From: Candidatus Omnitrophota bacterium
Lineage (GTDB): Bacteria; Omnitrophota; Gorgyraeia; Duberdicusellales; 4484-171
Direction: 5' to 3'
DNA: 49,556 nt
Assembly (NCBI GenBank): GCA_003154195.1
Contig: PMCS01000012.1
Coordinates: forward strand, 1 to 49,556
Positions 2,162 through 47,179 of the stretch are shown here, piece after piece. Under the pieces are notes generated by a model. The model did not search any database, had not been told where the DNA came from, and saw only the letters and a list, made by a program, of their open reading frames with translations. Position numbers and translations under genes: made by a program. The stretch's first letter is position 1. Each line of letters opens with the position of its first letter.

Positions 2162-3097
2162 GTGAATATATTAATTACCGGCGGAGCGGGATTTATCGGG
2201 TCGCATTTATGCGGCCGGTTCTTAGAGCGCGGTGATTCTGTAATCTGCGCAGATAATTTTATTACTGGTTCAAAAGATAATGTCAAAGAATTTTTAACCA
2301 ATTCCAGGTTTCGTCTGATTGAACACGATATATCAACCCCGCTTTATATCGAGGAGAAATTAGATTGGGTTTTTCATTTTGCTTCTCTGGCTTCGCCAAA
2401 ATTTTATCTCGGTTACCCGATAAAAACTTTGAAATCCGGCCTTTTAGGGGCACACAATTGTTTAGGCATTGCTAAGGCCCATCACGCTAAACTTTTTCTC
2501 GCTTCCACCTCAGAAATTTACGGCGACCCTCTGGTCCATCCGCAGACAGAAGAATATTGGGGCAATGTTAATACGATTGGGCCGCGCTCTTGTTATGACG
2601 AATCAAAACGCGGGGCTGAGGCTTTTGTCTACGCGTATCATCGCGAGCATGAACTAAATGTGCGAGTGGTGCGTATTTTTAACACATATGGGCCGTTTAT
2701 GGCTGTTGACGACGGCCGCGTCGTTTCTAATTTTGTCGTCCAGGCGCTAAAAAAGCAAGATTTGGCTATTTACGGTAAGGGTGAGCAAACGCGTTCTTTT
2801 TGCTATGTGGATGACCTCGTGAGGGGGATATTAAGAATGATGGAAGTTGATTATCAATTGCCGCTTAATCTGGGCAATCCCGTTGAATTCAAAGTCATTG
2901 AGCTGGCTCGGCTCGTTCTGAAGCTTCTCAAGTCACGATCTCAGATAAAATATTTTCCTATACCCGAAGACGACCCCAAACAGCGCAAGCCTGATATAAC
3001 CAAAGCAAAGACTTTGTTGGATTGGCAGCCCAGTATCCCTTTAGAAGAAGGCCTTGTAAAAACAATAGAGTATTTTAAGTCTAAAATAAAAAGTTAA
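2162..3097 (+). CDS. UDP-glucuronate decarboxylase-like SDR
   Basis: GTG start; ITGGAGFIGSHLCGRFL, ASPKFYLGYPIKTLK, STSEIYGDPLVHPQ, RGAEAF, RIFNTYGP: UXS-type motifs. Confidence 0.85.
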   Translation: MNILITGGAGFIGSHLCGRFLERGDSVICADNFITGSKDNVKEFLTNSRFRLIEHDISTPLYIEEKLDWVFHFASLASPKFYLGYPIKTLKSGLLGAHNCLGIAKAHHAKLFLASTSEIYGDPLVHPQTEEYWGNVNTIGPRSCYDESKRGAEAFVYAYHREHELNVRVVRIFNTYGPFMAVDDGRVVSNFVVQALKKQDLAIYGKGEQTRSFCYVDDLVRGILRMMEVDYQLPLNLGNPVEFKVIELARLVLKLLKSRSQIKYFPIPEDDPKQRKPDITKAKTLLDWQPSIPLEEGLVKTIEYFKSKIKS

Positions 3098-3105
3098 CCC
3101 TTTAC

Positions 3106-3134
3106 TTGATTTATTGTTTTTAGGGAGGTATAAT
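3106..3134 (+). promoter_or_regulatory. Sigma-70-like promoter TTGATT-N17-TATAAT upstream of PilZ genes
   Basis: Near-consensus -35 and perfect -10 with 17-bp spacing. Confidence 0.65.
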
Positions 3135-3188
3135 AAAGTCATAATCAGAAATACCGCTAGATAACCTCATATTTATCCGGGAGGGAGA

Positions 3189-3500
3189 ATGGCCTCAGAT
3201 AACCTTAATGAAAAGCGGTTAACCAGAAGATTTTCCTGCCTTTTATACGGTAATTTTAAATCAGACGCCGACCACCGCGGCTTAGCTTTGTTCCAGAATG
3301 TAAGCGAAACCGGATTGATGTTAAAAGCCTATGATACGCTTATCCCCGGCCAGGAATTGGAAATCAATATCCGGCGGCAGAATTCCATGGTTTTTTCTTT
3401 GAGCGGCCAGGTACGCTGGTGTAGAAAGGAAGGAGATTATTGGCGAGCGGGTATATCTTTTCGGGAACCGGCAGTATTTGATTTAAGCCGAATCGCGTAG
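3189..3500 (+). CDS. PilZ-domain protein
   Basis: R-x3-R (KRLTRRFSC), ISE/VSETGL (NVSETGLMLKA), GQVRWCRKEGDYWRAGISF. Confidence 0.75.
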   Translation: MASDNLNEKRLTRRFSCLLYGNFKSDADHRGLALFQNVSETGLMLKAYDTLIPGQELEINIRRQNSMVFSLSGQVRWCRKEGDYWRAGISFREPAVFDLSRIA

Positions 3501-3543
3501 TAGATAAAGAGGCGGCTTTAACTAAGGTTCGGAGGGGCTGTCT

Positions 3544-3861
3544 ATGGATAATCCGCAAGATAAAAGAGAAGTGGAAAGAATCTCTTGCTATCTGGAAGGC
3601 GAATTGATATCCGATCACGGAGACTACAACCAGGTGATTCTTTATGATATCAGCGCTGCCGGCGCGGAAGTAAGAACGCACCGGCCGGTGAGGGTAAACG
3701 CCCAGGTGAGAATTAACGTGATTACGAAAAAGCTGACGCCATTTGTTTTGGAAGGAAAGATACGCTGGTGCAAAAAGGACGATGACGTATGGCAAGCCGG
3801 CATTGCTTTTCACCGCCCCTTACCGTTGCCGTTTAACGAAATAGCGCAGTTTATGCATTAA
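3544..3861 (+). CDS. PilZ-domain protein
   Basis: REVERISCYLEGE, YDISAAGAEVRT, GKIRWCKKDDDVWQAGIAF; tandem paralogue of the preceding gene. Confidence 0.75.
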   Translation: MDNPQDKREVERISCYLEGELISDHGDYNQVILYDISAAGAEVRTHRPVRVNAQVRINVITKKLTPFVLEGKIRWCKKDDDVWQAGIAFHRPLPLPFNEIAQFMH

Positions 3862-3976
3862 GCCTCCGGCTTAATGAACCAAAAAACATAAGAACGAAAG
3901 AGCCGGCAAACTATAAACAATATTTAATTTTTGTTCTTTCGTTTTTCAGTTCTTTCGTTTCCCGGTTATTTTTAAT

Positions 3977-10112: not shown

Positions 10113-10199
10113 ATTCTCTCAAGCTCGAAGAGCGCAGAGAAAATCTGTAGCCGAATTACCCAGCACTAATTTTGTTAAGCAAAATTAGTGCTGGGTAAT
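10100..10199 (+). repeat. Stop-codon-associated structured element, copy A
   Basis: TAATGAGGCTT-AGATTCTCTC-AAGCTCGAAGAGCGCA-GAGAAAATCT-GTAGCCGAAT, then perfect 17-bp hairpin ACCCAGCACTAATTTTG(TTAAG)CAAAATTAGTGCTGGGT. Confidence 0.8.
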
Positions 10200-10291
10200 G
10201 AGTTTGAAAACTCGCCGAAATCAAGACCGCAGGCTTGAGGCTTACCTAACCGAAAAATGCATTCGTTTGCTCTCATCGCACTAAAAATGTA

Positions 10292-24298: not shown

Positions 24299-27200
24299 AT
24301 GATTGAGATAAAGATGCGCCGATTGATTATGTTTGTCGTACTTCTGTCCGCCGCAACCGTTTGCGGTTTGGTTTATGGCCAGGAATTGTCAAAGGCCAAG
24401 GTAATCTGGGGGATAAACGGCATAAAGGATAGTCCGGAAGGGGCGCTTATTCTTGACGTGGCGTTTGACGGGGCAGCGGCAAAGGCCGGCCTCTCAGCAG
24501 GGGATGTTGTGACGGCCATTGACGGCTCACCAATAAAAAATTCCAAGGACTTAAAAGAAAAAATCAAGGCTTCGCAGCCATACACGCTTGTCGACGTTAA
24601 GTTTCAGCGGTTCGGCAAGGTCTTAGAGAAAACCGTCCTGCCTAGGGGATTCCTGCGGCTTGAGGTAAAAGATTTCGACCGCAGCTTTGTGATCCCGGGG
24701 ATGTCCCAGACAGCTGCTAAGCAGCGGTCGGCCGCCCTGGACGCCCTGGACAATATCAATGTCCTGAAACAGGTTATTATTGACCCCAAGTCCGGCCAAA
24801 TCGCGCTTGTGGGTACCTACGACCCGAAGTACGCCACCGGGCCTATTCCGTATCTTGATTTATTGAAAACAGCCATAAAATATCCGGAGCCCAAGTTTAG
24901 CCTTATCCCGGTATATGATAAGATAAAGAGCGATGATGAGGTTCCTAATCCATACGGCATACCCATTGTTCCCGCGCTGCTCGGGATGCCTGCGGCGGAA
25001 AGAGAGCGCCAGTTATTCATCCGGGCAATATCCGACGCTTACGGGATAACGCAGGAAGAATATGTTAAATTATACAATTACGCCTATATGGACTACGACG
25101 GGAACATTGCGCCGCCGGAGATCGGCAGGATTATCGTAAAAATGTGCCGCCACTTGGGTTGGGATGACGTTGCCGAAGCTTATGGACAGCTGGAAGGCAA
25201 CACAGCTGACGGTTTTACGCAAGCGATGAAAACACTGGGCCAGGAAAAGGAAGCGCAAAATGTCATGGCCGACAAAGGCATTGATGAAAAACAGAAGGAA
25301 AAAGAGTTACTGAACCTGGCCTGCGTAGCGATTATAGAAAAACTCGAAGTGCCTCCGGGCGAGGCAAAGCAGCTGAGATATTCCCTGCAGAACAACTGGA
25401 AACCCGAGCCTGCCGAATTGCTCAAAAAGATGTACCAGCTGATTCCCATATCAATAAAAGACAAGACCGGCCGTCCCATCACCGGGTTGTGCATAGTAAA
25501 GGTCCCGATAGGCGACGCCGCAACCAGGATAATATGCGGCACCGGCAACGATACCCTGCTAGTGAAAATCGTAGCCGAAGATGTCGAAACCAATACCAAC
25601 CTTGTCCGCATCATGTATGAAGCCGATTACGCCGGAAAAACTTTCGTGATAAGGCCCGACTTATTCGAAAAAATCCCCGGGCAGATGACCATTCCGGAAT
25701 ATACGAGCCGGAAGATAGAAGAAATGGGCGGCAACCAGAAGGGCATATTCCTGGATGCCAAATTCTGGTTTGAACCCAAGCATGTGGCAATGAAGGTTTC
25801 GCCGGATAAGAAGGTAGTATCTTTCGGCGCCGCGGAAATAAGGTTTACCACCAGTTGGGATAAATTCGACGCGGGCGGTTTTAAATCGAAGGAAGAGGCG
25901 GAAAGGATGATGAAAAAAATAAGTACCATCTACGACGATTGGTGCGCGCAGTATACCGATAAATACGACCTATACGCGCAGATTTTTCCGCCTTTCCACG
26001 CCCTGCGGGAATCGGCCAAGATGGTAGCCCTTGCCAAGTGGCTTAACAGCGAAAAGATTTCCGTTAACCTGGGAGATGTAAAACCGGAACATTGGAATCC
26101 CCCGGAGAAAATAATAGGTTTCTGGCGCAGCGGCGTGCTCGCATATAAGAACAGCGAAACCGGAAAATATTCTACCGCACCATACCACGGGGTCACGGGC
26201 GGCGTGACTTTTAAGCCTAAGAATGCCCAATGGACAGCCGTCGAATCGACAACGGTAAGTGAAACCGGCTTGTCGGAACAATTGAAATTGAGCAGCCAGC
26301 TGGGCGAAAAGGCGGTCGACGCCGCGCGCTCCGGTGATATTGAAAATGCCAGGTACCTGTCTGAATTAAGCGCCCAGGCCATGACCGGAGAGGTATTGCG
26401 GGGCGACCTGATAAAACTTAATGTGCCCCTGGCGGAACCCGTACAGCTTCCGGCTTCGCCCCAGGCCGTGCTGCTGCAAAAAGAAATGATCAAGCAGACT
26501 TACGATGAAATCAACGAATTGTCTCAAAACCCGGCCTCGAAGGCAAAGGCGGCCGAGAAATTGGGACAGATAGGTAATATTTACAATAACATGAGGAGCA
26601 ATCCCGCATCGGCGTCGAATTACCTGTACAAACTGCAGGCAGGCAAAGTTTCCGAAGTGTCCGGGCCAAAAGTCGAGCCAGTGCCTTCAGTAGAACTCCT
26701 GAAAGATTTTTACGATACAATTCATAAGCGCACCGCCGGGACCAATGAGCTGGCGCAGGAAATACTAAGATCGCTTAAAACCAATAAGCCGCCAATGCCC
26801 GAAAACATTAACAAATATATCGACGACCTTGTCCCGGGTGACGTTATCCTGATTGCGTCAGTGCCGTTTGCCGACCGGGAAAAGGCGGGTATGAAGGATG
26901 TGCTGATCAGTAATGCTATAAAATTGCTGGACCGGTGGAGCACAAACTGTTGGAGTTCGCCCGCCTCACACGTCGCGTTATATTTAGGAGAACGAAACGG
27001 CAAGCGATGGTATGAGGACAATACCAGCGAGCACGGCCCGGTCATCAAAGAAGAACAGGAATTTTTGAAAGAGTATGGCGCGCGCAAAATGGATGTCGCA
27101 ACGCTTGTTGGCGAACCGATATCTCCTGCGGAGGCCGAGGCTATTTTCAAAGCCGTCCATGAATTACGGGACGCCGGAATCACCTACGGCGTAGGCAGCG

Positions 27201-27406
27201 ACAAGAGGATGGTCTGTTCGGAGGCTGCCCGGTGGCTGCTGATGAAGGCGGGCCGCGATATTCCCCGGACAGAAAGCGGCCCGGGTTATCCGAACCTGAT
27301 CACCGCTTTCATACAAAAAAAAGATCTGGTTACCTACAGTCCGGCCGATTATTACGATAACCAGGGATATTTCCTGATCCGTCCGCTGGACATACAAAGA
27401 AAGTGA
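24299..27406 (+). CDS. Secreted protein with N-terminal PDZ domain and C-terminal permuted NlpC/P60 (YiiX-like papain fold) domain
   Basis: PDZ GALILDVAFDGAAAKAGLSAGDVVTAIDGSPIKNSKDLKEKI; C-terminal PGDVILIA...SPASHVALYLGERNGKRWYED...MVCSEAARWLLMKAGRDIP. Confidence 0.75.
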   Translation: MIEIKMRRLIMFVVLLSAATVCGLVYGQELSKAKVIWGINGIKDSPEGALILDVAFDGAAAKAGLSAGDVVTAIDGSPIKNSKDLKEKIKASQPYTLVDVKFQRFGKVLEKTVLPRGFLRLEVKDFDRSFVIPGMSQTAAKQRSAALDALDNINVLKQVIIDPKSGQIALVGTYDPKYATGPIPYLDLLKTAIKYPEPKFSLIPVYDKIKSDDEVPNPYGIPIVPALLGMPAAERERQLFIRAISDAYGITQEEYVKLYNYAYMDYDGNIAPPEIGRIIVKMCRHLGWDDVAEAYGQLEGNTADGFTQAMKTLGQEKEAQNVMADKGIDEKQKEKELLNLACVAIIEKLEVPPGEAKQLRYSLQNNWKPEPAELLKKMYQLIPISIKDKTGRPITGLCIVKVPIGDAATRIICGTGNDTLLVKIVAEDVETNTNLVRIMYEADYAGKTFVIRPDLFEKIPGQMTIPEYTSRKIEEMGGNQKGIFLDAKFWFEPKHVAMKVSPDKKVVSFGAAEIRFTTSWDKFDAGGFKSKEEAERMMKKISTIYDDWCAQYTDKYDLYAQIFPPFHALRESAKMVALAKWLNSEKISVNLGDVKPEHWNPPEKIIGFWRSGVLAYKNSETGKYSTAPYHGVTGGVTFKPKNAQWTAVESTTVSETGLSEQLKLSSQLGEKAVDAARSGDIENARYLSELSAQAMTGEVLRGDLIKLNVPLAEPVQLPASPQAVLLQKEMIKQTYDEINELSQNPASKAKAAEKLGQIGNIYNNMRSNPASASNYLYKLQAGKVSEVSGPKVEPVPSVELLKDFYDTIHKRTAGTNELAQEILRSLKTNKPPMPENINKYIDDLVPGDVILIASVPFADREKAGMKDVLISNAIKLLDRWSTNCWSSPASHVALYLGERNGKRWYEDNTSEHGPVIKEEQEFLKEYGARKMDVATLVGEPISPAEAEAIFKAVHELRDAGITYGVGSDKRMVCSEAARWLLMKAGRDIPRTESGPGYPNLITAFIQKKDLVTYSPADYYDNQGYFLIRPLDIQRK

Positions 27407-27413
27407 GGGACCT

Positions 27414-28271
27414 ATGAAAACAACTCAATGGTTTTTACGTCTGGTGTTCGTTGGTTCGTTTTTTATCAGCGCAAATCCAGCCGTTTGGGCAGCGGATAGC
27501 TGGGTTGCCGATTCTAAAACAGGTTGTCAGATTGGCTGGGTGTCCGGCAGCTATAACATCACGGCAGCGAGTTGGTCCGGCTCTTCTGTAGACGGCAAGG
27601 CTGAAGGGAAAGGCACGTTGACGGTTACCCTCCGGAATAAAGACGCCAAAGAGTTACAGGGCCAGGGTGACGCCGAGATGAAGGCCGGCAAGTTGGACGG
27701 CAAGGCCAGTGTCAAATGGTCCGACAACAGTACCTATGACGGGGATTATAAAGCGGGTATTTGTGAGGGCAAAGGCGTATATAAGTGGCCCAATGGACAA
27801 TTCTACGATGGCGAATGGAAGAGCGGCAAGCAGGATGGCAGAGGTGTATCTAAGCTGGCTACCGGCCAAGTTTACGACGGCGAATGGAAGGACGGCAAGC
27901 GATCCGGCAAAGGAGTTATGAAATGGCCGAACGGCGGGATCTATGAAGGCGACTGGGCAAATGACACTACGAACGGCCACGGCAGGTTAGAGATGTTTAA
28001 GAATGACATTTATGACGGCGATTGGAAAAACGGCAAGAGGGACGGAAAATGCGTGTACAAGTCACCTGACGGCACGACCTATGAAGGCGATGCAAAGAAC
28101 GACAAATTAGTAGGCAAGGGCAAGATAACATATCCGAACGGATCTGTCTACGAGGGTGATGTTGACGGCGTAAGGCCGTCAGGCTACGGCGTCCTTAAGG
28201 ATCCCAGCGGCAAAGTGCTTTATCAAGGGGAAAGGAACAATACGGCGAACAACTCAGCCGAGCAATTTTAA
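27414..28271 (+). CDS. Secreted MORN-repeat protein 1
   Basis: Signal peptide; repeats YDGDYKAGICEGKGVYKWPNGQFYDGEWKSGKQDGRGV... Confidence 0.85.
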   Translation: MKTTQWFLRLVFVGSFFISANPAVWAADSWVADSKTGCQIGWVSGSYNITAASWSGSSVDGKAEGKGTLTVTLRNKDAKELQGQGDAEMKAGKLDGKASVKWSDNSTYDGDYKAGICEGKGVYKWPNGQFYDGEWKSGKQDGRGVSKLATGQVYDGEWKDGKRSGKGVMKWPNGGIYEGDWANDTTNGHGRLEMFKNDIYDGDWKNGKRDGKCVYKSPDGTTYEGDAKNDKLVGKGKITYPNGSVYEGDVDGVRPSGYGVLKDPSGKVLYQGERNNTANNSAEQF

Positions 28272-28378
28272 TGAGCACATCATTTTTCCAAACCGCAGGC
28301 GCAGGAAAAATGATAGTGCGGGGTGATTCAAACCCACCGACAAAATCGGTGGTAATTCATAGATTGTGCCGAGCGCGT
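28269..28378 (+). repeat. Structured element, copy F (starts at MORN1 stop codon)
   Basis: TAATGAGCACATCATTTTTCC-AAACCGCAGGCGCA-GGAAAAATGATAGTGC, second hairpin ACCCACCGA-CAAAA-TCGGTGGT. Confidence 0.65.
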
Positions 28379-29157
28379 TCCACACTACAAAAGGGAGTAT
28401 TAATATGAGAATAGTCCGGGGGTTTTTAATTTTGCTGTTAGTGAGCGCGTTTTTTATCGGCACAAACCCAACCGCCGGTGCAGCGGACTCGCCTTCAGAC
28501 AAAGTCTCGCCTTTGGCGGATAGCTGGGTTGCCGATTCTAAAACAGGTTGTCAAATTGGTTGGGTGTCCGGCAGCTATAACGTCACGGCAGCAAGCTGGT
28601 CCGGATCTTCTGTGGACGGCAAGGCTGAAGGGAAAGGCGCGTTGACGGTTACCATCCGGAATAAAGACGGAAAAGAGCTGCAAGGCCAGGGTGACGCCGA
28701 GATGAAGGCCGGCAAGTTGGACGGCAAGGCCAGCCTAAAATGGTCCAGCGGCGATTCCTATGACGGGTATTACAAATCCGGCAGATGCGAAGGTAAGGGC
28801 GTATATAAGTTTCCGAACGGCGATACCTACGACGGTGACTGGAAGAACGGCAAAATGGAGGGGACAGGCATATATAAAAAGCCCGACGGCGGTTATTCCA
28901 AAGGGGAATGGAAAAGCAGTGTAATGGACGGAAAGGGTGAAATCCATTGGGCGAACGGCCAGATTAACATCGGCGATTTTAAGAACGGCTGGGCTGAAGG
29001 CAAGGGCATAATAAAATATTCTAACGGCAACACCTACGAAGGCGATATTGTCAAGGGCAATCCCGCAGGCAAAGGCGTCCTCAAGGACCCCAGCGGCAAA
29101 GTAATTTATGAAGGCGAAAGGGGAAATACGCCCGGCGGCACAGCCGAACAATATTAA
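28366..29157 (+). CDS. Secreted MORN-repeat protein 2 (start possibly 28405, MRIVRGF)
   Basis: Signal peptide MRIVRGFLILLLVSAFFIGTNPTAGAADS; MORN repeats. Confidence 0.83.
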   Translation: MPSAFHTTKGSINMRIVRGFLILLLVSAFFIGTNPTAGAADSPSDKVSPLADSWVADSKTGCQIGWVSGSYNVTAASWSGSSVDGKAEGKGALTVTIRNKDGKELQGQGDAEMKAGKLDGKASLKWSSGDSYDGYYKSGRCEGKGVYKFPNGDTYDGDWKNGKMEGTGIYKKPDGGYSKGEWKSSVMDGKGEIHWANGQINIGDFKNGWAEGKGIIKYSNGNTYEGDIVKGNPAGKGVLKDPSGKVIYEGERGNTPGGTAEQY

Positions 29158-29165
29158 GGAGTGTC

Positions 29166-30230
29166 ATGAAAAAAATATTTACTTGTTTTCTTTTAATTTT
29201 ATTGGGAGCCTTTGCGGCCCGCGCATTCGGTGAAAATATTTCCGACGAAGCGCAAAAGCACCTGAAGTGGGGCACGATGGCCCTGGAGTCGGCAAAAACA
29301 CCGAAGGACATTCAAGACTCGATGGATGAATTCAATGAGGCGATAAAAATTGCTCCAGACTTCGCGGATGCTTATTACAGACTCGCCGTGGTCCAGGAGA
29401 TGGTTAACAAAGATGACGACGCGATGAAGAATGTAAAAAAATACCTGGAGCTGGCGCCGGACGGCGCCACGGTCAAGGAGGCAAATAAACTCATCGACAA
29501 ACTGGAGTATAAAATATACAAGAAGGAGAAATTAAAGAAAGAACTATCGGTCCCTGCTCTTATACCGGCCGGTGAGTTCATGATGGGTGACCCAAAGGGA
29601 CAGTTAGATGAGAACGAACGCCCCCAACACAAGATTTTTCTCGACGCTTACTACATGGACAAATGCGAAGTGACTGTCGCCCAGTACCGCGGGTATTGCA
29701 GCGCAACCGGAAAGGCTATGCCGGATGCTCCGCCCTGGGGCTGGCGGGATGACCTGCCGATGTGTAATGTAACTTGGGATGACGCCGACGCTTATGCCCG
29801 GTATTACGGCAAGCGCCTGCCCACCGAGGCGGAATGGGAAAAAGCGGCGAGAGCCGGCTCAACTGCCAAGTACTGTTTCGGTGATTCCGAATCAGAGCTT
29901 TTAGAATATGCCTGGTGTGCGGCCAACTCTAACAATATGCTGCAACCGGTAGCTACAAAGAAGCCCAACGCTTTCGGACTATACGACATGCATGGCAACG
30001 CAGCGGAGTGGTGCAGTGACTGGTACGGCGCTAATTACTACAAGAACAGCCCGGCAAGCAACCCAACAGGCCCGGACAGAGGCCCATACCACGCTGTGCG
30101 CGGCGGCACCTACAATGACCAAGCTTTATACTGCGGTTCCGCGTTCCGGTGCAATTTTGACAATACTTTTGCAAAAGAAGGAATGCGGGGATTCTTTCTC
30201 GGATTCCGCTGCGTTTCATCGGTAAAATAA
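29166..30230 (+). CDS. Secreted TPR + formylglycine-generating-enzyme-like (C-type-lectin fold) protein 1
   Basis: TPR DSMDEFNEAIKIAPDFADAYYRLAVVQ; FGE-type GEFMMGD, DKCEVTVAQYRGYC, RLPTEAEWEKAARAGS, GLYDMHGNAAEWCSDWYG, VRGGTY...LGFRC. Confidence 0.87.
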   Translation: MKKIFTCFLLILLGAFAARAFGENISDEAQKHLKWGTMALESAKTPKDIQDSMDEFNEAIKIAPDFADAYYRLAVVQEMVNKDDDAMKNVKKYLELAPDGATVKEANKLIDKLEYKIYKKEKLKKELSVPALIPAGEFMMGDPKGQLDENERPQHKIFLDAYYMDKCEVTVAQYRGYCSATGKAMPDAPPWGWRDDLPMCNVTWDDADAYARYYGKRLPTEAEWEKAARAGSTAKYCFGDSESELLEYAWCAANSNNMLQPVATKKPNAFGLYDMHGNAAEWCSDWYGANYYKNSPASNPTGPDRGPYHAVRGGTYNDQALYCGSAFRCNFDNTFAKEGMRGFFLGFRCVSSVK

Positions 30231-30245
30231 AGAGGGGTTATTCAT

Positions 30246-30986
30246 ATGAAAACAGTTCAGGGATTCTTAAGCTTGCTGCTGGTGGCCGCGTTTTTTATCG
30301 GGGCGGGTTCCGTTGCCATGGCAGAGCGGTCAGTTGGCAAGACGGCAGAGAGCTGGGCCACCGATCCGAAAACAGGCTGTCAGATTTGCTGGGTATCTGA
30401 TTACTATACCATAGTGGCGGCAACATGGACAGGGCCGGTTGTAAACGGTAAGGCCGAGGGCAAAGGCAACCTTACAGTAACCACCAGAGGTAAAGACGGG
30501 AAGGAATCACAGTGGCAGGGTGAAGTTGAGATGAAGGCCGGCAAACTGGATGGCAAGGGCAGCATAAAATTGTCTGACGGCGATTCCTATGACGGGGATT
30601 ATAAAGCCGGTGTCCGCGAAGGCAAGGGTTTATATAAGTTCCCGAACGGCAATACCTACGACGGCGACTGGAAGAACAACAAAATGGAAGGGATGGGCAT
30701 ATATAAAAAGCCCGACGGTGATTATTCCGAGGGAGAATGGAAAAACAACGTAATGGATGGAAAGGGTAAAGTCAGGTGGGCGGACGGCAAGGCCTATGAC
30801 GGCGATGTGAAGAACGGCCATATGGAAGGCAAGGGTATACTAAAATACCCTAACGGCTCGGTCTACGAAGGCGGCATTCACCACGATGACCCCGCCGGAT
30901 ACGGCGTCCTTAAGGATCCCAGCGGTAAAGTGCTTTATCAAGGGGAAAGGAACAATACGGCGAACGATTCAGCCGAGCAATTTTAA
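30246..30986 (+). CDS. Secreted MORN-repeat protein 3
   Basis: Signal peptide; YDGDYKAGVREGKGLYKFPNGNTYDGDWKNNKMEGMG repeats. Confidence 0.85.
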   Translation: MKTVQGFLSLLLVAAFFIGAGSVAMAERSVGKTAESWATDPKTGCQICWVSDYYTIVAATWTGPVVNGKAEGKGNLTVTTRGKDGKESQWQGEVEMKAGKLDGKGSIKLSDGDSYDGDYKAGVREGKGLYKFPNGNTYDGDWKNNKMEGMGIYKKPDGDYSEGEWKNNVMDGKGKVRWADGKAYDGDVKNGHMEGKGILKYPNGSVYEGGIHHDDPAGYGVLKDPSGKVLYQGERNNTANDSAEQF

Positions 30987-31205
30987 TGAGGCTTAGATTT
31001 TTTCAAGCCCAAGGGGCGTAGAAAAAATCTGTAGCCGAATTAACCCAGCACTAATTTTGTTGCAGCAAAATTAGTGCTGGGTAATGAGCCTGAGGCTTCA
31101 CCGAATGCACATGTATACATGCGCAGCGAGGCGGCAGTCGAATCAATGAAGCTAAGCCCCACCGTATTCGGCGGGCCAAGTTTCATTGTTTGGAGCGAAG
31201 CGGAG
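30984..31205 (+). repeat. Structured element, composite copy B (two modules in tandem)
   Basis: TAATGAGGCTT-AGATTTTTTC...GAAAAAATCT-GTAGCCGAAT; hairpin ACCCAGCACTAATTTTG/CAAAATTAGTGCTGGGT; second module TGAGGCTTCACCG...GGCGGCAGTCGAATC; CAATGAA...TTCATTG; GAGCGAAGCGGAG. Confidence 0.8.
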
Positions 31206-31220
31206 GGAAAGGAGCGGCCG

Positions 31221-32288
31221 ATGAGCGTAATCAAAATGAAAGCGTGCCTTATCATCTTTCTGATTGTACTGGGGAGTTTTGCAACCAGTGTCCTAGGCCA
31301 GGATATTTCCGATGAAGTGCGTAAGCACATGGATTGGGGCAAGATGGCCCTGGAGTCGGCAAAAACACCGGCGGACATTGAAGAATCGATGGACCAGTTT
31401 AAGCAGGCAATAAAGCTTGCGCCGGACTACGCCGACGCTTATTACCGGCTCGGCGTGGTTCAGGAGATGGTCAACAAAGATGACGAGGCGATGAAGAACC
31501 TGAAAAAATATCTTGAGCTTGCGCCGGACGGCGCTACCGTTAAAGAGGCAAAGCATCTCATCGATAAACTGGAGTATAAGGCGTATAGGAAGGAGAAAGC
31601 CATCAGGGAGCTGGGAGTTCTTATACCCGCCGGTGAGTTCATGATGGGCGGCAGCGAGGCCAATGAACTTCCCCAACATAAGGTTTTCCTTGACGCTTTC
31701 TATATAGACAAACTCGAAGTAACGGTCGCCCAATACCGCGCCTACTGCGACGCAACCGGAAAGGCTATGCCGGATGCTCCGCCCTGGGGTTGGCAGGATG
31801 ACCTGCCGATGGGTAACGTAACCTGGGAAGATGCCAATGCCTATGCCCAATATTACGGCAAGCGCCTGCCTACCGAGGCGGAATGGGAAAAGGCCGCCCG
31901 GGCCGGTTCTAATACTAAATACTGTTTCGGTGATTCCGAATCGCAACTTTCCGAATATGCCTGGTACGCGGGTAACTCTGATAATATGGTGCATCCGGTA
32001 GGAACAAAGAAGCCCAATGTCTTCGGCCTTTACGACATGTATGGCAATGCCGCGGAGTGGTGCAGCGATTGGTATGGCCCGAGATACTACAAGGACAGCC
32101 CGGCAAATAACCCCAAGGGGCCGGCCAGTGGCCCGCACCATGCCGCGCGCGGCGGCAATTACGGCGAGCCATCCTTATACTGTGTTTATTCCGCGTTCCG
32201 ATACAATTTTGATATTGCTTCTTTTAAGGGAGTAGTGCGAGGAAATTGGCTCGGATTCCGCTGTGCTTCTTCGGTGAAAGCGGATTAA
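31221..32288 (+). CDS. Secreted TPR + formylglycine-generating-enzyme-like (C-type-lectin fold) protein 2
   Basis: Paralogue of 29166-30230; SD AAAGGAG precedes ATG 31221 (alternative start 31236), the upstream ORF extension is repeat B. Confidence 0.87.
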   Translation: MSVIKMKACLIIFLIVLGSFATSVLGQDISDEVRKHMDWGKMALESAKTPADIEESMDQFKQAIKLAPDYADAYYRLGVVQEMVNKDDEAMKNLKKYLELAPDGATVKEAKHLIDKLEYKAYRKEKAIRELGVLIPAGEFMMGGSEANELPQHKVFLDAFYIDKLEVTVAQYRAYCDATGKAMPDAPPWGWQDDLPMGNVTWEDANAYAQYYGKRLPTEAEWEKAARAGSNTKYCFGDSESQLSEYAWYAGNSDNMVHPVGTKKPNVFGLYDMYGNAAEWCSDWYGPRYYKDSPANNPKGPASGPHHAARGGNYGEPSLYCVYSAFRYNFDIASFKGVVRGNWLGFRCASSVKAD

Positions 32289-43574: not shown

Positions 43575-44033
43575 ATGTCTCGGATAGTGAAGATAGGCAG
43601 TGGAATTGCATTGCTTATGTTATTGATCTGGGCTGTAGGCTGTTCGCAAGATTCTAACCAAGCGTTGTTTATGGCAGTATCGAAAGGACATACCGCAACC
43701 GTTAAAACCTTATTAGCTCAGGGCGTTGATGTGAATGCGAAAGATGACGATGGGGTGACAGTTTTGATGTCGGCAGCATACGGAGGACATACCAAAACCG
43801 TTACGGCTTTGTTAGCCAAGGGCGCCGAAGTCAATGCTAAAACTAAGGATGGCGTGACAGCCTTGATGGTAGCAGCGCAGGGCGGACATACTGCAACTGT
43901 TAAAGCCTTACTGGTCCCAAGCGTCGATGTTAACGCGAAAGCCAAAGATGGTTCGACAGCCTTGATGAAGGCAGTAGCGAAAGGGCATGCGGGAATCGTC
44001 AACTTGCTTAAGCAGGCTGGGGCTAAAGAATGA
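43575..44033 (+). CDS. Ankyrin-repeat lipoprotein
   Basis: Lipobox LLIWAVGCSQ; repeats KGHTATVKTLLAQGVDVNAKDDDGVTVLMSAAYGGHT. Confidence 0.88.
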   Translation: MSRIVKIGSGIALLMLLIWAVGCSQDSNQALFMAVSKGHTATVKTLLAQGVDVNAKDDDGVTVLMSAAYGGHTKTVTALLAKGAEVNAKTKDGVTALMVAAQGGHTATVKALLVPSVDVNAKAKDGSTALMKAVAKGHAGIVNLLKQAGAKE

Positions 44034-47000
44034 ACTTGTCCGAGATTTCCATAAAACGGCCGGTTTTTGCCTGGATGTTGATGTCCGGGTTGATTATCTT
44101 CGGCGGGATCTCCTTTATGCGCATGGGGATCAGCCAGCTTCCCGATGTGGATTATCCCGTGGTTTCCGTCAACATCCGTCTGGAAGGGGCAGCCCCGGAG
44201 GTCATCGAAACCTCCGTCGTCGATATCATCGAGAACGCGGTGATGAGCATCCAGAGCATTCGCAGTGTTACCTCCCAGTCGGAAAACAGTGAAGGAAGCA
44301 TAACGATTGAATTTGAACTCAATCGTAATATTGACCTGGCGGTCCAGGATGTCCAGGCCAAAATCGAATCCGTCTTGCAGAAACTTCCCAGGGAAATCAC
44401 TTCACCGACCATCCGTAAATCGAATCCCGAGGACCAGCCGATCATGTTGCTGACCCTGGAAAGCAATACGTATCCCCTTAAGGATTTGATGGCCTATACC
44501 AATGACCGCGTCAAGGACCAGTTTTCGACGGTAGCGGGAGTCGGCGATATTACCCTCGGTGGTTACCGCGATCCTAACTTACGCATTTGGGTGGATAAGA
44601 AAGCCCTCAATTCTTATTCCCTTTCGGTCAACGACGTCATCAGCACGGTTCAGAACGAGCACCTGGAAAGCCCTGCCGGCCAGTTGGAAGACGGCAAGCG
44701 CCAATTGAATGTCCGGACTATGGGTGAGGCCAAAACTGTCGAGGAATTCGGCAACCTGATTATCAACCAACGCGGCGGCCAGCCGAACTATGTCCCGATT
44801 CATCTGAGCCAGGTCGCGCGGATCGAGGAAGGTATGGCCGATGCTTTGAGGATCAGCCGCGCTATGGGGACTCCCGGGGTTGCGCTCAATATCCTTAAAC
44901 AGCGCGGGTCCAACGCCGTCGCGGTGGCCAAGGACGTCCGGGCTAAGGTTGCGGAAGTTCAGAAAGGGTTGCCCAAGGGCATTAGCTTAAGCGTAAATTT
45001 TGACAGCACCCGTTATATCGAGCAAGCCGTTCATGAGTTAAACTTTACGCTGTTGCTTTCGGCACTTTTGACCGGTTTGGTTTGCTGGATGTTTTTGGGT
45101 TCCTGGGCATCTACTCTAAACGTTCTGTTGGCGATTCCGACTTCGGTCGTCGGCACTTTTATTGTACTTTCTTTCGCCGGGTTCACCTTGAATACCTTTA
45201 CCTTGCTGGGCTTAAGTCTCTCTATAGGAATTGTGGTGGATGATGCGATCATGGTGTTGGAAAATATTATTCGGCATCAGGAAAAAGGTCAAAATAGAAT
45301 TTTGGCGGCCATGGCTGGCTCTAAAGAAATTACTTTTGCGGCCATAGCCGCTACGATTTCAATCGTAGCGATCTTTTTACCGGTGGCTTTCATGAGCGGC
45401 GTGATTGGGAAGTTTTTCTTCCAGTTCGGGGTGACCATCACGGTGGCGGTGTTGCTGTCGCTTCTGGAAGCCCTGACCCTGACTCCCATGCGTTGTTCGC
45501 AGTTTGTGGATGTCGGAAAACGGACGACTCGGTTCGGCAAAGGGGTCGAATGGTTGATGGACAAGACAAGAGACCTTTATGCCGGTTCGCTTGCGGTAGC
45601 GTTGAATTATCGTTTAAAAGTGATTGCCACCGCATTGATAGTTTTCGTTTTAAGTTTCTCGGCTCTTTGGTTTCTCAACAAGGAATTCATCCCTTCCGAG
45701 GATCAGAGCCGTTTCAACGTCCGGCTCAAAACCCCGGTTGGCTCAGCCCTCCCTTATTCGGATTCTAAATTCAGTGAAGTCGAAAAATTTCTTTCGCGGC
45801 GGCCTGAGGTCGACCGCTACGTTATGCAGGTAGGGGGAGGTTCTCCTGGTGATTCCAACAGCGGTTCCGTATTGGTAACGATGAAGGAGCGGGGCAAGCG
45901 CGGTATCGATAAAATCGCCGGGCACGAATTAAGCCAGCAGGATTTTATGGGTATCTGCCGCAAGGAATTTAACAAGATTCCCGATGTGCGTGCGGTGATC
46001 CAGGACCTTTCCACTAAGGCGTTTACCGCTTCCCGGGGCTTTCCGGTGGAGTTTACGGTTAAGGGCCCGGATTGGGATAAGCTGGCGGATTATTCGAAAC
46101 AAATAATGGCAAAGTTGGAGGAGACCGGTTTGGTTACCGACTTAGATACCAATTATTCTCTTGGTCAGCCTGAGCTTCACGTGATTCCCGACCGCAAGAA
46201 GGCGTCTGAATATGGGGTAAGTATTTCCAATATCTCCCAGGTTGTGGAGGCGATGATCGGCGGCGTGCTGGTGGGTACTTATGAGAAAGGCGGCCACCGT
46301 TACGACATCCGCCTGAAACTGGAAGAAAGTAAAGAAGACCCGCGCACCAAGGTGAACAGCCTTTTTGTCCGTAATAACCGGGGTGAGCTGACGTCGCTTT
46401 CCAATTTAGTCACTATGGAAGAAAAAGAGTCCATGGTGGCGATTTGGCGCAGCAATCGGGAACGGTCGATCACGGTTTACGCCAATGTCAAGACGGGTAA
46501 GTCCCAGCAAGAAGCTCTACTAGCGGCCCAAGGTATTGCCAAACGCATTTTGCCGCCGGATTACCATATCACCCTTACCGGCAGTTCCCAGACATTCGCC
46601 GAATCCCTCCAGAGCCTGGTCTGGGTTCTTTTGCTCGGTATTCTCGTGGCCTACATGGTGCTGGCGTCGCAGTTTAACAGTTTCATCGATCCGATTTCGG
46701 TGTTAATGGCGCTTCCCTTCAGTATATCCGGCGCGCTGATGGCCCTATTTATCGCTCACCGGTCGATTAATATTTATAGCGTTATCGGCCTCATCCTGCT
46801 TATGGGGATCGTCAAGAAAAACTCGATCCTGCTGGTGGATTTTACTAATCAGGTGCGGGAAAGAGGAGAACCCTCCGTTCCTAAGGCTCTCCTGACAGCT
46901 TGCCCTATTCGCTTGCGGCCTATTTTGATGACTTCGGTGGCTACCATCGCCGGCGCTATCCCGGCGGCTCTGGCCATCGGCCCGGGAGCTGAGAGCCGGA

Positions 47001-47179
47001 TACCCATGGCAATTGCCGTCATCGGCGGCGTGATTTTTTCGACCCTGCTCACGCTTTACGTGGTCCCTTGTTTTTATAGCGCCATGTCGCGTTTCGAAGG
47101 AAAGAAAGACCATGAGAAACTTTTGGCGGATGGCGGGGAAGAAGGACGTGGGGAGAAAGAAGTAGGGAGCAAACAGTAA
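44030..47179 (+). CDS. RND-family efflux pump inner-membrane subunit (HAE1/AcrB-like)
   Basis: ISIKRPVFAWMLMSGLIIFGGISFMRMGISQLPDVDYPVVSV, GIVVDDAIMVLENI, MGIVKKNSILLVDF; 1049 aa. Confidence 0.93.
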   Translation: MNLSEISIKRPVFAWMLMSGLIIFGGISFMRMGISQLPDVDYPVVSVNIRLEGAAPEVIETSVVDIIENAVMSIQSIRSVTSQSENSEGSITIEFELNRNIDLAVQDVQAKIESVLQKLPREITSPTIRKSNPEDQPIMLLTLESNTYPLKDLMAYTNDRVKDQFSTVAGVGDITLGGYRDPNLRIWVDKKALNSYSLSVNDVISTVQNEHLESPAGQLEDGKRQLNVRTMGEAKTVEEFGNLIINQRGGQPNYVPIHLSQVARIEEGMADALRISRAMGTPGVALNILKQRGSNAVAVAKDVRAKVAEVQKGLPKGISLSVNFDSTRYIEQAVHELNFTLLLSALLTGLVCWMFLGSWASTLNVLLAIPTSVVGTFIVLSFAGFTLNTFTLLGLSLSIGIVVDDAIMVLENIIRHQEKGQNRILAAMAGSKEITFAAIAATISIVAIFLPVAFMSGVIGKFFFQFGVTITVAVLLSLLEALTLTPMRCSQFVDVGKRTTRFGKGVEWLMDKTRDLYAGSLAVALNYRLKVIATALIVFVLSFSALWFLNKEFIPSEDQSRFNVRLKTPVGSALPYSDSKFSEVEKFLSRRPEVDRYVMQVGGGSPGDSNSGSVLVTMKERGKRGIDKIAGHELSQQDFMGICRKEFNKIPDVRAVIQDLSTKAFTASRGFPVEFTVKGPDWDKLADYSKQIMAKLEETGLVTDLDTNYSLGQPELHVIPDRKKASEYGVSISNISQVVEAMIGGVLVGTYEKGGHRYDIRLKLEESKEDPRTKVNSLFVRNNRGELTSLSNLVTMEEKESMVAIWRSNRERSITVYANVKTGKSQQEALLAAQGIAKRILPPDYHITLTGSSQTFAESLQSLVWVLLLGILVAYMVLASQFNSFIDPISVLMALPFSISGALMALFIAHRSINIYSVIGLILLMGIVKKNSILLVDFTNQVRERGEPSVPKALLTACPIRLRPILMTSVATIAGAIPAALAIGPGAESRIPMAIAVIGGVIFSTLLTLYVVPCFYSAMSRFEGKKDHEKLLADGGEEGRGEKEVGSKQ

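Follow-up and report, generated by a model that had tools for sequence, protein, structure and literature searches.

The periplasmic Prc-NlpI-MepS system of Escherichia coli, characterised in some detail, brings together a PDZ protease (Prc), a TPR adaptor (NlpI) and an NlpC/P60 enzyme (MepS). Among the permuted members of the NlpC/P60 superfamily, YiiX has a bound fatty acid and has been proposed to cleave fatty acyl amides, LnsA functions in lipoprotein N-acylation with its partner LnsB in Staphylococcus aureus, and Tox-Act1 is a phospholipase. Here we describe a six-gene cassette at positions 24299-32288 of a 49,556-nucleotide stretch of DNA from a Candidatus Omnitrophota bacterium (contig PMCS01000012.1 of assembly GCA_003154195.1; hereafter the window), which encodes a PDZ protein ending in a permuted NlpC/P60-like domain, three MORN-repeat proteins and two proteins that join a TPR module to an FGE-sulfatase domain. 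An earlier annotation made from the letters of the window, the sequence-only reading, held that no described system is known to combine these parts, and none was found in the open-licence literature. The cassette looks like a real yet undescribed envelope-processing module, and to one specific form of it, an extracytoplasmic enzyme-plus-adaptor module in which a permuted-papain enzyme would work with PDZ-docked MORN proteins and TPR-FGE adaptors, we give nearly even credence.

The first gene (24299..27406; all features of the cassette lie on the + strand) encodes a 1035-amino-acid exported protein with a signal peptide, a PDZ domain, an uncharacterised core and a C-terminal domain (26804..27403) that belongs, by profile comparison, to the permuted NlpC/P60 superfamily, beyond the reach of the Pfam model. 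The domain has no Pfam match in the window protein or in its relatives; PF05708 (Peptidase_C92) matches none of 8 domains, and a PF05708 search of the source genome found none there. Because the PF05708 gathering score is not reached, the domain is placed as a superfamily member by profile and not as a member of Peptidase_C92. When the alignment of the domain was compared by hhalign with a profile of E. coli YiiX and YaeF and Omnitrophota Peptidase_C92 proteins, the match had 95.2% probability and an E-value of 2.5e-8. The eight aligned relatives (alignment A6; below, G numbers denote genomes, with G000 the source genome, L numbers loci, C31 a contig of the source genome, and A6 and A9 alignments) keep GD, SH, an acidic residue, Y, CSE and SPAD in constant order, the exception being the G157 copy, which is without the Cys and Tyr. 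The catalytic set of YiiX is H49, E64, Y115 and C128 (PMC3142127), and H891, D907, Y963 and C973 of the window protein align with these residues, His preceding Cys in the permuted order (A6, hhalign against A9). The predicted active-site codons lie at 26969-26971, 27017-27019, 27185-27187 and 27215-27217, respectively. AlphaFold modelling of the domain (two sequences) gave a predicted local distance difference test (pLDDT) score of 36, with an agreeing order of strands and helices, too low for use in a fold search, so that membership of the permuted NlpC/P60 group rests on profiles and residue positions. When PDB sequences were searched with a profile of the C-terminal alignment, only chance matches came back.

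Upstream of this domain, the PDZ domain (residues 45-113; 24431..24637) is of the HtrA/DegS type, matching PDZ_2 at 2.9e-12 as well as the DegP/DegS/RseP-type PDZ models of NCBIfam. The core (residues 118-784; 24650..26650) has relatives in Omnitrophota and in deltaproteobacterial metagenome-assembled genomes (MAGs) and falls in no named family. Its AlphaFold model (pLDDT 71) has no PDB fold match at E<=0.001, and two relatives of the core match DUF1598 weakly at the same position (E 0.14 and 0.13). Searches of plasmids and phages with the 1035-residue protein gave no match, and a scan of viral contigs gave no relative.

The cassette runs in one direction in the order PDZ protein, MORN1, MORN2, TPR-FGE1, MORN3, TPR-FGE2, separated by gaps of 7, 133, 8, 15 and 234-249 bases, and a rubrerythrin-VIT1 gene follows 27 bases past TPR-FGE2 (open reading frame list and Pfam). 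The order and strand are those given by the sequence-only reading, as are the signal-peptide-like starts, here called by a simple hydropathy scan rather than SignalP: in all six proteins a signal-peptidase-I-like site follows a hydrophobic stretch at the N-terminus, and none has a later transmembrane segment in the same scan. Its other domain calls were supported as well, namely the permuted NlpC/P60-like end (by hhalign profile match, without Pfam support), the shared N-terminal domain of the three MORN proteins and the two TPR proteins with FGE/C-type-lectin domains.

MORN repeats are best known in eukaryotic cytoplasmic proteins, and a search of the open literature found few papers that mention them together with the periplasm. 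The exported MORN1 (27414..28271; MORN 9e-42), MORN2 (28405..29157; 4.9e-29) and MORN3 (30246..30986; 8.8e-32) each have 4-5 significant stretches of tandem 23-residue repeats above the Pfam gathering score. For MORN2 the start is taken as the ATG at 28405, the first-listed GTG at 28366 lying before the signal peptide. MORN1 is 66% identical to MORN2 and 62% identical to MORN3, and is itself a mosaic, its first part being nearest MORN2 (84% at the DNA level) and its last part nearest MORN3 (81%). Judged by sequence, MORN1-3, and likewise TPR-FGE1 and TPR-FGE2, are paralogues from local duplication. An N-terminal domain of ~80 residues is common to MORN1-3, the MORN protein of G157 and that of a Syntrophorhabdus MAG (L073), and is not evident in the inspected N-termini of other Omnitrophota MORN proteins. 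The C-termini are also distinctive: MORN1 and MORN3 end in -SAEQF, MORN2 in -TAEQY and the G157 protein in -SAQQF, a terminal F or Y being present in 4 of 4 PDZ-linked Omnitrophota MORN proteins versus 0 of 14 others. The PDZ domains of DegS and AlgW bind aromatic C-termini such as YQF and WVF; because such tails here accompany an HtrA/DegS-type PDZ domain, docking of the MORN tails to the PDZ protein is suggested.

TPR-FGE1 (29166..30230; FGE-sulfatase domain at residues 132-350) and TPR-FGE2 (31236..32288, with an alternative in-frame ATG start at 31221) are both exported, are 74% identical and match, besides TPR models, the FGE-sulfatase fold at 1.4e-54 and 4.1e-52. Solved structures of formylglycine-generating enzymes can be aligned with their FGE domains, and among the best PDB relatives TvpA stands next to true enzymes of this type. 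Both Cys272 and Cys277 (Sc-FGE numbering) are part of the FGE active site. The Cys277 equivalent is kept in both cassette proteins, and the Cys272 equivalent is Asp in TPR-FGE1 and Glu in TPR-FGE2. Because one of the two copper cysteines is missing, the FGE domains are taken as binding domains, and are probably not formylglycine-generating enzymes. Diversification of these domains by a diversity-generating retroelement was rejected, with no RVT_1 in the genome and no template repeat in the window. An 18-pair hairpin lies at 31043-31082, between MORN3 and TPR-FGE2, in a 131-nucleotide stretch with a folding z-score of -6.0. A second copy in the window (10147-10202; 95% identity over 58 bp) marks it as a dispersed palindromic repeat.

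Co-occurrence of these families beyond the source genome had been set beforehand as a test, and was found in two forms. A PDZ-core gene lies directly upstream of a MORN gene in G157, which is of the same class and another Omnitrophota family, and in Syntrophorhabdus L073, whereas the gene that comes after a C92-like gene encodes a TPR-FGE protein in G384 and an ankyrin-TPR protein in G126 and G314, the TPR module in these three genomes being recognisably that of the window proteins. The cassette divides into two pairings that can occur apart, one of PDZ-core and MORN genes and the other of C92-like genes and TPR-FGE or ankyrin-TPR genes, and is not one conserved six-gene set. The C-terminal domain of the L073 PDZ-core protein is helical, common to L075 and not a permuted papain, and because L073 keeps its MORN gene all the same, MORN tracks the core rather than the enzyme. 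Elsewhere, the C92-like gene of G177 is flanked by a gene for an exported TPR protein and by a Sel1-MORN_2 gene whose product has no clear signal peptide, a C92-like paralogue on C31 sits among exported ankyrin genes, and a single chain in G078 joins the TPR module, MORN repeats and Lcl_C, a C-type-lectin-like domain that we take to share the C-type-lectin clan with FGE.

The genome-wide distribution of the partner families gives these pairings some weight. All 13 MORN matches and both FGE matches of the source genome (2.48 Mb, 34 contigs) fall inside the cassette; every ankyrin match of G126 falls in the single gene adjoining the enzyme gene; one of three FGE matches in G384 adjoins the enzyme gene; and the only MORN matches of G157 adjoin its PDZ-core gene. 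Under random gene order each of the last three adjacencies would be expected, as estimated from genome size, about once in several hundred to a thousand, an argument from counts in which the families were picked after the loci had been seen and related genomes are not independent. We read the association as real, although its independent instances perhaps number three or four.

Several genes near these loci deserve mention. The permuted-papain paralogue on C31 and a nearby ankyrin gene (L038:6676-7854 and 2464-3975, minus strand) have near-identical N-termini (92% DNA identity over 146 bp), which suggests that enzyme and partner genes have swapped their start regions. The Desulfatitalea PDZ-core gene has in its vicinity an Lnb_N-type (DUF4105) protein (L074:6671-8662) and a kinase-FGE fusion (L074:4845-6596), DUF4105 having been grouped with permuted NlpC/P60 enzymes (PMC12994826). 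An exported conserved domain of ~290 residues, outside any known family, is a separate gene beside the PDZ-core gene in G304 (L105:5794-6675) and is fused to the PDZ-core protein in Syntrophorhabdus L072 (L072:8672-11865). The neighbour of the PDZ-core gene in G278, taken by eye for a canonical papain-like enzyme, found no support in Pfam or PDB searches. In the window, a small ankyrin lipoprotein-like gene (43575-44033) overlaps the start of an RND transporter (44030-47179), a close relative of which lies downstream of the enzyme/TPR-FGE pair of G384 (L113:10756-12000).

A number of observations weigh against an enzyme-plus-adaptor module. The enzyme assignment has neither a Pfam match nor a usable structural model behind it, and the domain is rare and patchy, with 8 copies in 7 of the 384 Omnitrophota genomes surveyed for it. 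The enzyme gene of G206 is without a repeat-protein neighbour, and the PDZ-core genes of L075, L105 and L107 are without an adjoining MORN gene (those of L072, L074 and L106 run off their contigs). With regard to docking, three of the four aromatic-tailed MORN proteins are paralogues, and the L073 protein ends in -VEAE, with no aromatic residue, and so speaks poorly for PDZ-tail docking as a general rule. Finally, the closest full relative, the G157 locus, is frameshifted, carries a stop codon within the signal peptide of its MORN protein as well as an in-frame deletion, and has Ala and Phe where the catalytic Cys and the Tyr would be. The contig is of low coverage (cov 4.42), and the frameshift and stop could therefore be assembly errors; the residue changes and the deletion are harder to explain in this way, and the locus may be decaying.

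Such rarity, patchiness and decay in the closest relative, together with the abundance of ankyrin genes in the host genome, would also follow if common exported repeat proteins had clustered by chance, with no shared function and, as G157 would indicate, at a dispensable locus. This is quite improbable, given that MORN and FGE matches are absent from the rest of the genome, that the pairings recur across distant lineages in two phyla, and that a fusion protein exists. A conflict module of the toxin/immunity type, in which the core would be a carrier with a swapped C-terminal domain, the duplicated neighbours would be immunity proteins or binding factors, and other cells would be the target, stays in play because the C-terminal domains vary on the core: a permuted papain, a helical domain or a TPR-coiled coil follows one core, as in polymorphic toxins. 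The partners are duplicated and mosaic, the TPR partners do track the enzyme domain, the distribution is patchy, permuted NlpC/P60 toxins are on record (Tox-Act1, TseH), and Omnitrophota have been proposed as predators or parasites. However, an immunity protein should track its toxin, and the MORN proteins follow the core even where the C-terminal domain is another one (L073), which speaks against their being plain immunity proteins; each of the partners in the window is itself exported, and Pfam found no known toxin-delivery domain and PADLOC no match. We consider a conflict module unlikely.

Two further alternatives concern the chemistry. The TPR-FGE proteins could be catalytic, oxidising a cysteine on an exported partner or sulfatase, as their strong FGE-sulfatase scores and their alignment with solved formylglycine-generating enzymes might imply, but with Asp or Glu in place of the first active-site cysteine in both copies, and with FGE-fold relatives such as TvpA and GldK annotated otherwise, such activity is very improbable. 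A peptidoglycan amidase or endopeptidase regulated by the TPR and MORN proteins, which would make the cassette a wall-directed variant of Prc-NlpI-MepS, has the precedent of that characterised system and of the wall hydrolases in the superfamily; it is nonetheless rather unlikely, since the hydrophobic S1 pocket of permuted members has been judged unsuited to peptide and no recognised wall-binding domain appeared in the Pfam and NCBIfam scans. By analogy with YiiX, LnsA and Tox-Act1, processing of acyl groups is more likely than processing of peptidoglycan.

In the enzyme-plus-adaptor module that we favour, the 1035-residue exported protein would carry a C-terminal cysteine enzyme of the permuted NlpC/P60 type (H891/D907/Y963/C973), which would cleave or transfer an acyl or amide bond on an envelope lipid, a lipoprotein or a substrate of a neighbouring cell. 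Since the permuted NlpC/P60 enzymes studied so far work on lipids or acyl groups, our first guess at the substrate is an acyl or amide compound of the envelope. Partners would dock to the PDZ domain by their free C-termini to form a complex, the aromatic -EQF/-EQY tails of the MORN proteins being the most plausible ligands, and the TPR-FGE proteins would serve as adaptors, the TPR part contacting the enzyme and the FGE/C-type-lectin fold recognising a ligand instead of making formylglycine. The sequence-only reading had proposed a cell-surface binding/processing apparatus; a surface or periplasmic apparatus still fits, whereas a single conserved set, catalytic FGE domains and a peptidoglycan substrate do not fare as well. 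With more doubt than confidence, we extend the proposal to a modular acyl- or amide-processing system of Omnitrophota and some deltaproteobacterial lineages, in which the enzyme would be aimed by interchangeable exported MORN, TPR-FGE and TPR-ankyrin proteins, the MORN proteins acting via PDZ-tail docking. If MORN proteins do dock to a PDZ protein bearing a lipid-type cysteine enzyme, extracytoplasmic MORN and FGE-fold proteins would gain a testable job.

How does the cassette compare with the systems closest to it? Prc-NlpI-MepS is the best-described parallel, likewise placing a PDZ domain, a TPR adaptor and an NlpC/P60 enzyme outside the cytoplasm, but in the cassette the enzyme has the permuted arrangement and shares one chain with the PDZ domain, and the MORN and FGE parts have no counterpart there. 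Because no S41 protease catalytic domain was found in the cassette by Pfam and NCBIfam scans, the cassette is not a member of that system. LnsA/LnsB similarly pairs a permuted NlpC/P60-like protein with a partner, whereas the cassette is without an identified LnsB-like membrane partner, and its partners are soluble repeat proteins. The type VI effectors Tox-Act1 and TseH put the permuted NlpC/P60 fold to use against lipids, but no type VI or other delivery signature was found in the cassette, and all six of its proteins have Sec-type signal peptides. The YaeF/YiiX proteins (Peptidase_C92, PPNE) share export and the motif order GD-SH-[DE]-Y-CSE-P.D with the cassette domain, which differs from them in lying below Pfam detection and in being fused to a PDZ domain and a large core, with MORN and TPR-FGE partners adjoining. 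Finally, the surface proteins TvpA of Treponema denticola and GldK/PorK resemble the TPR-FGE proteins in having an exported FGE/C-type-lectin fold, to which the cassette proteins add a TPR module in front.

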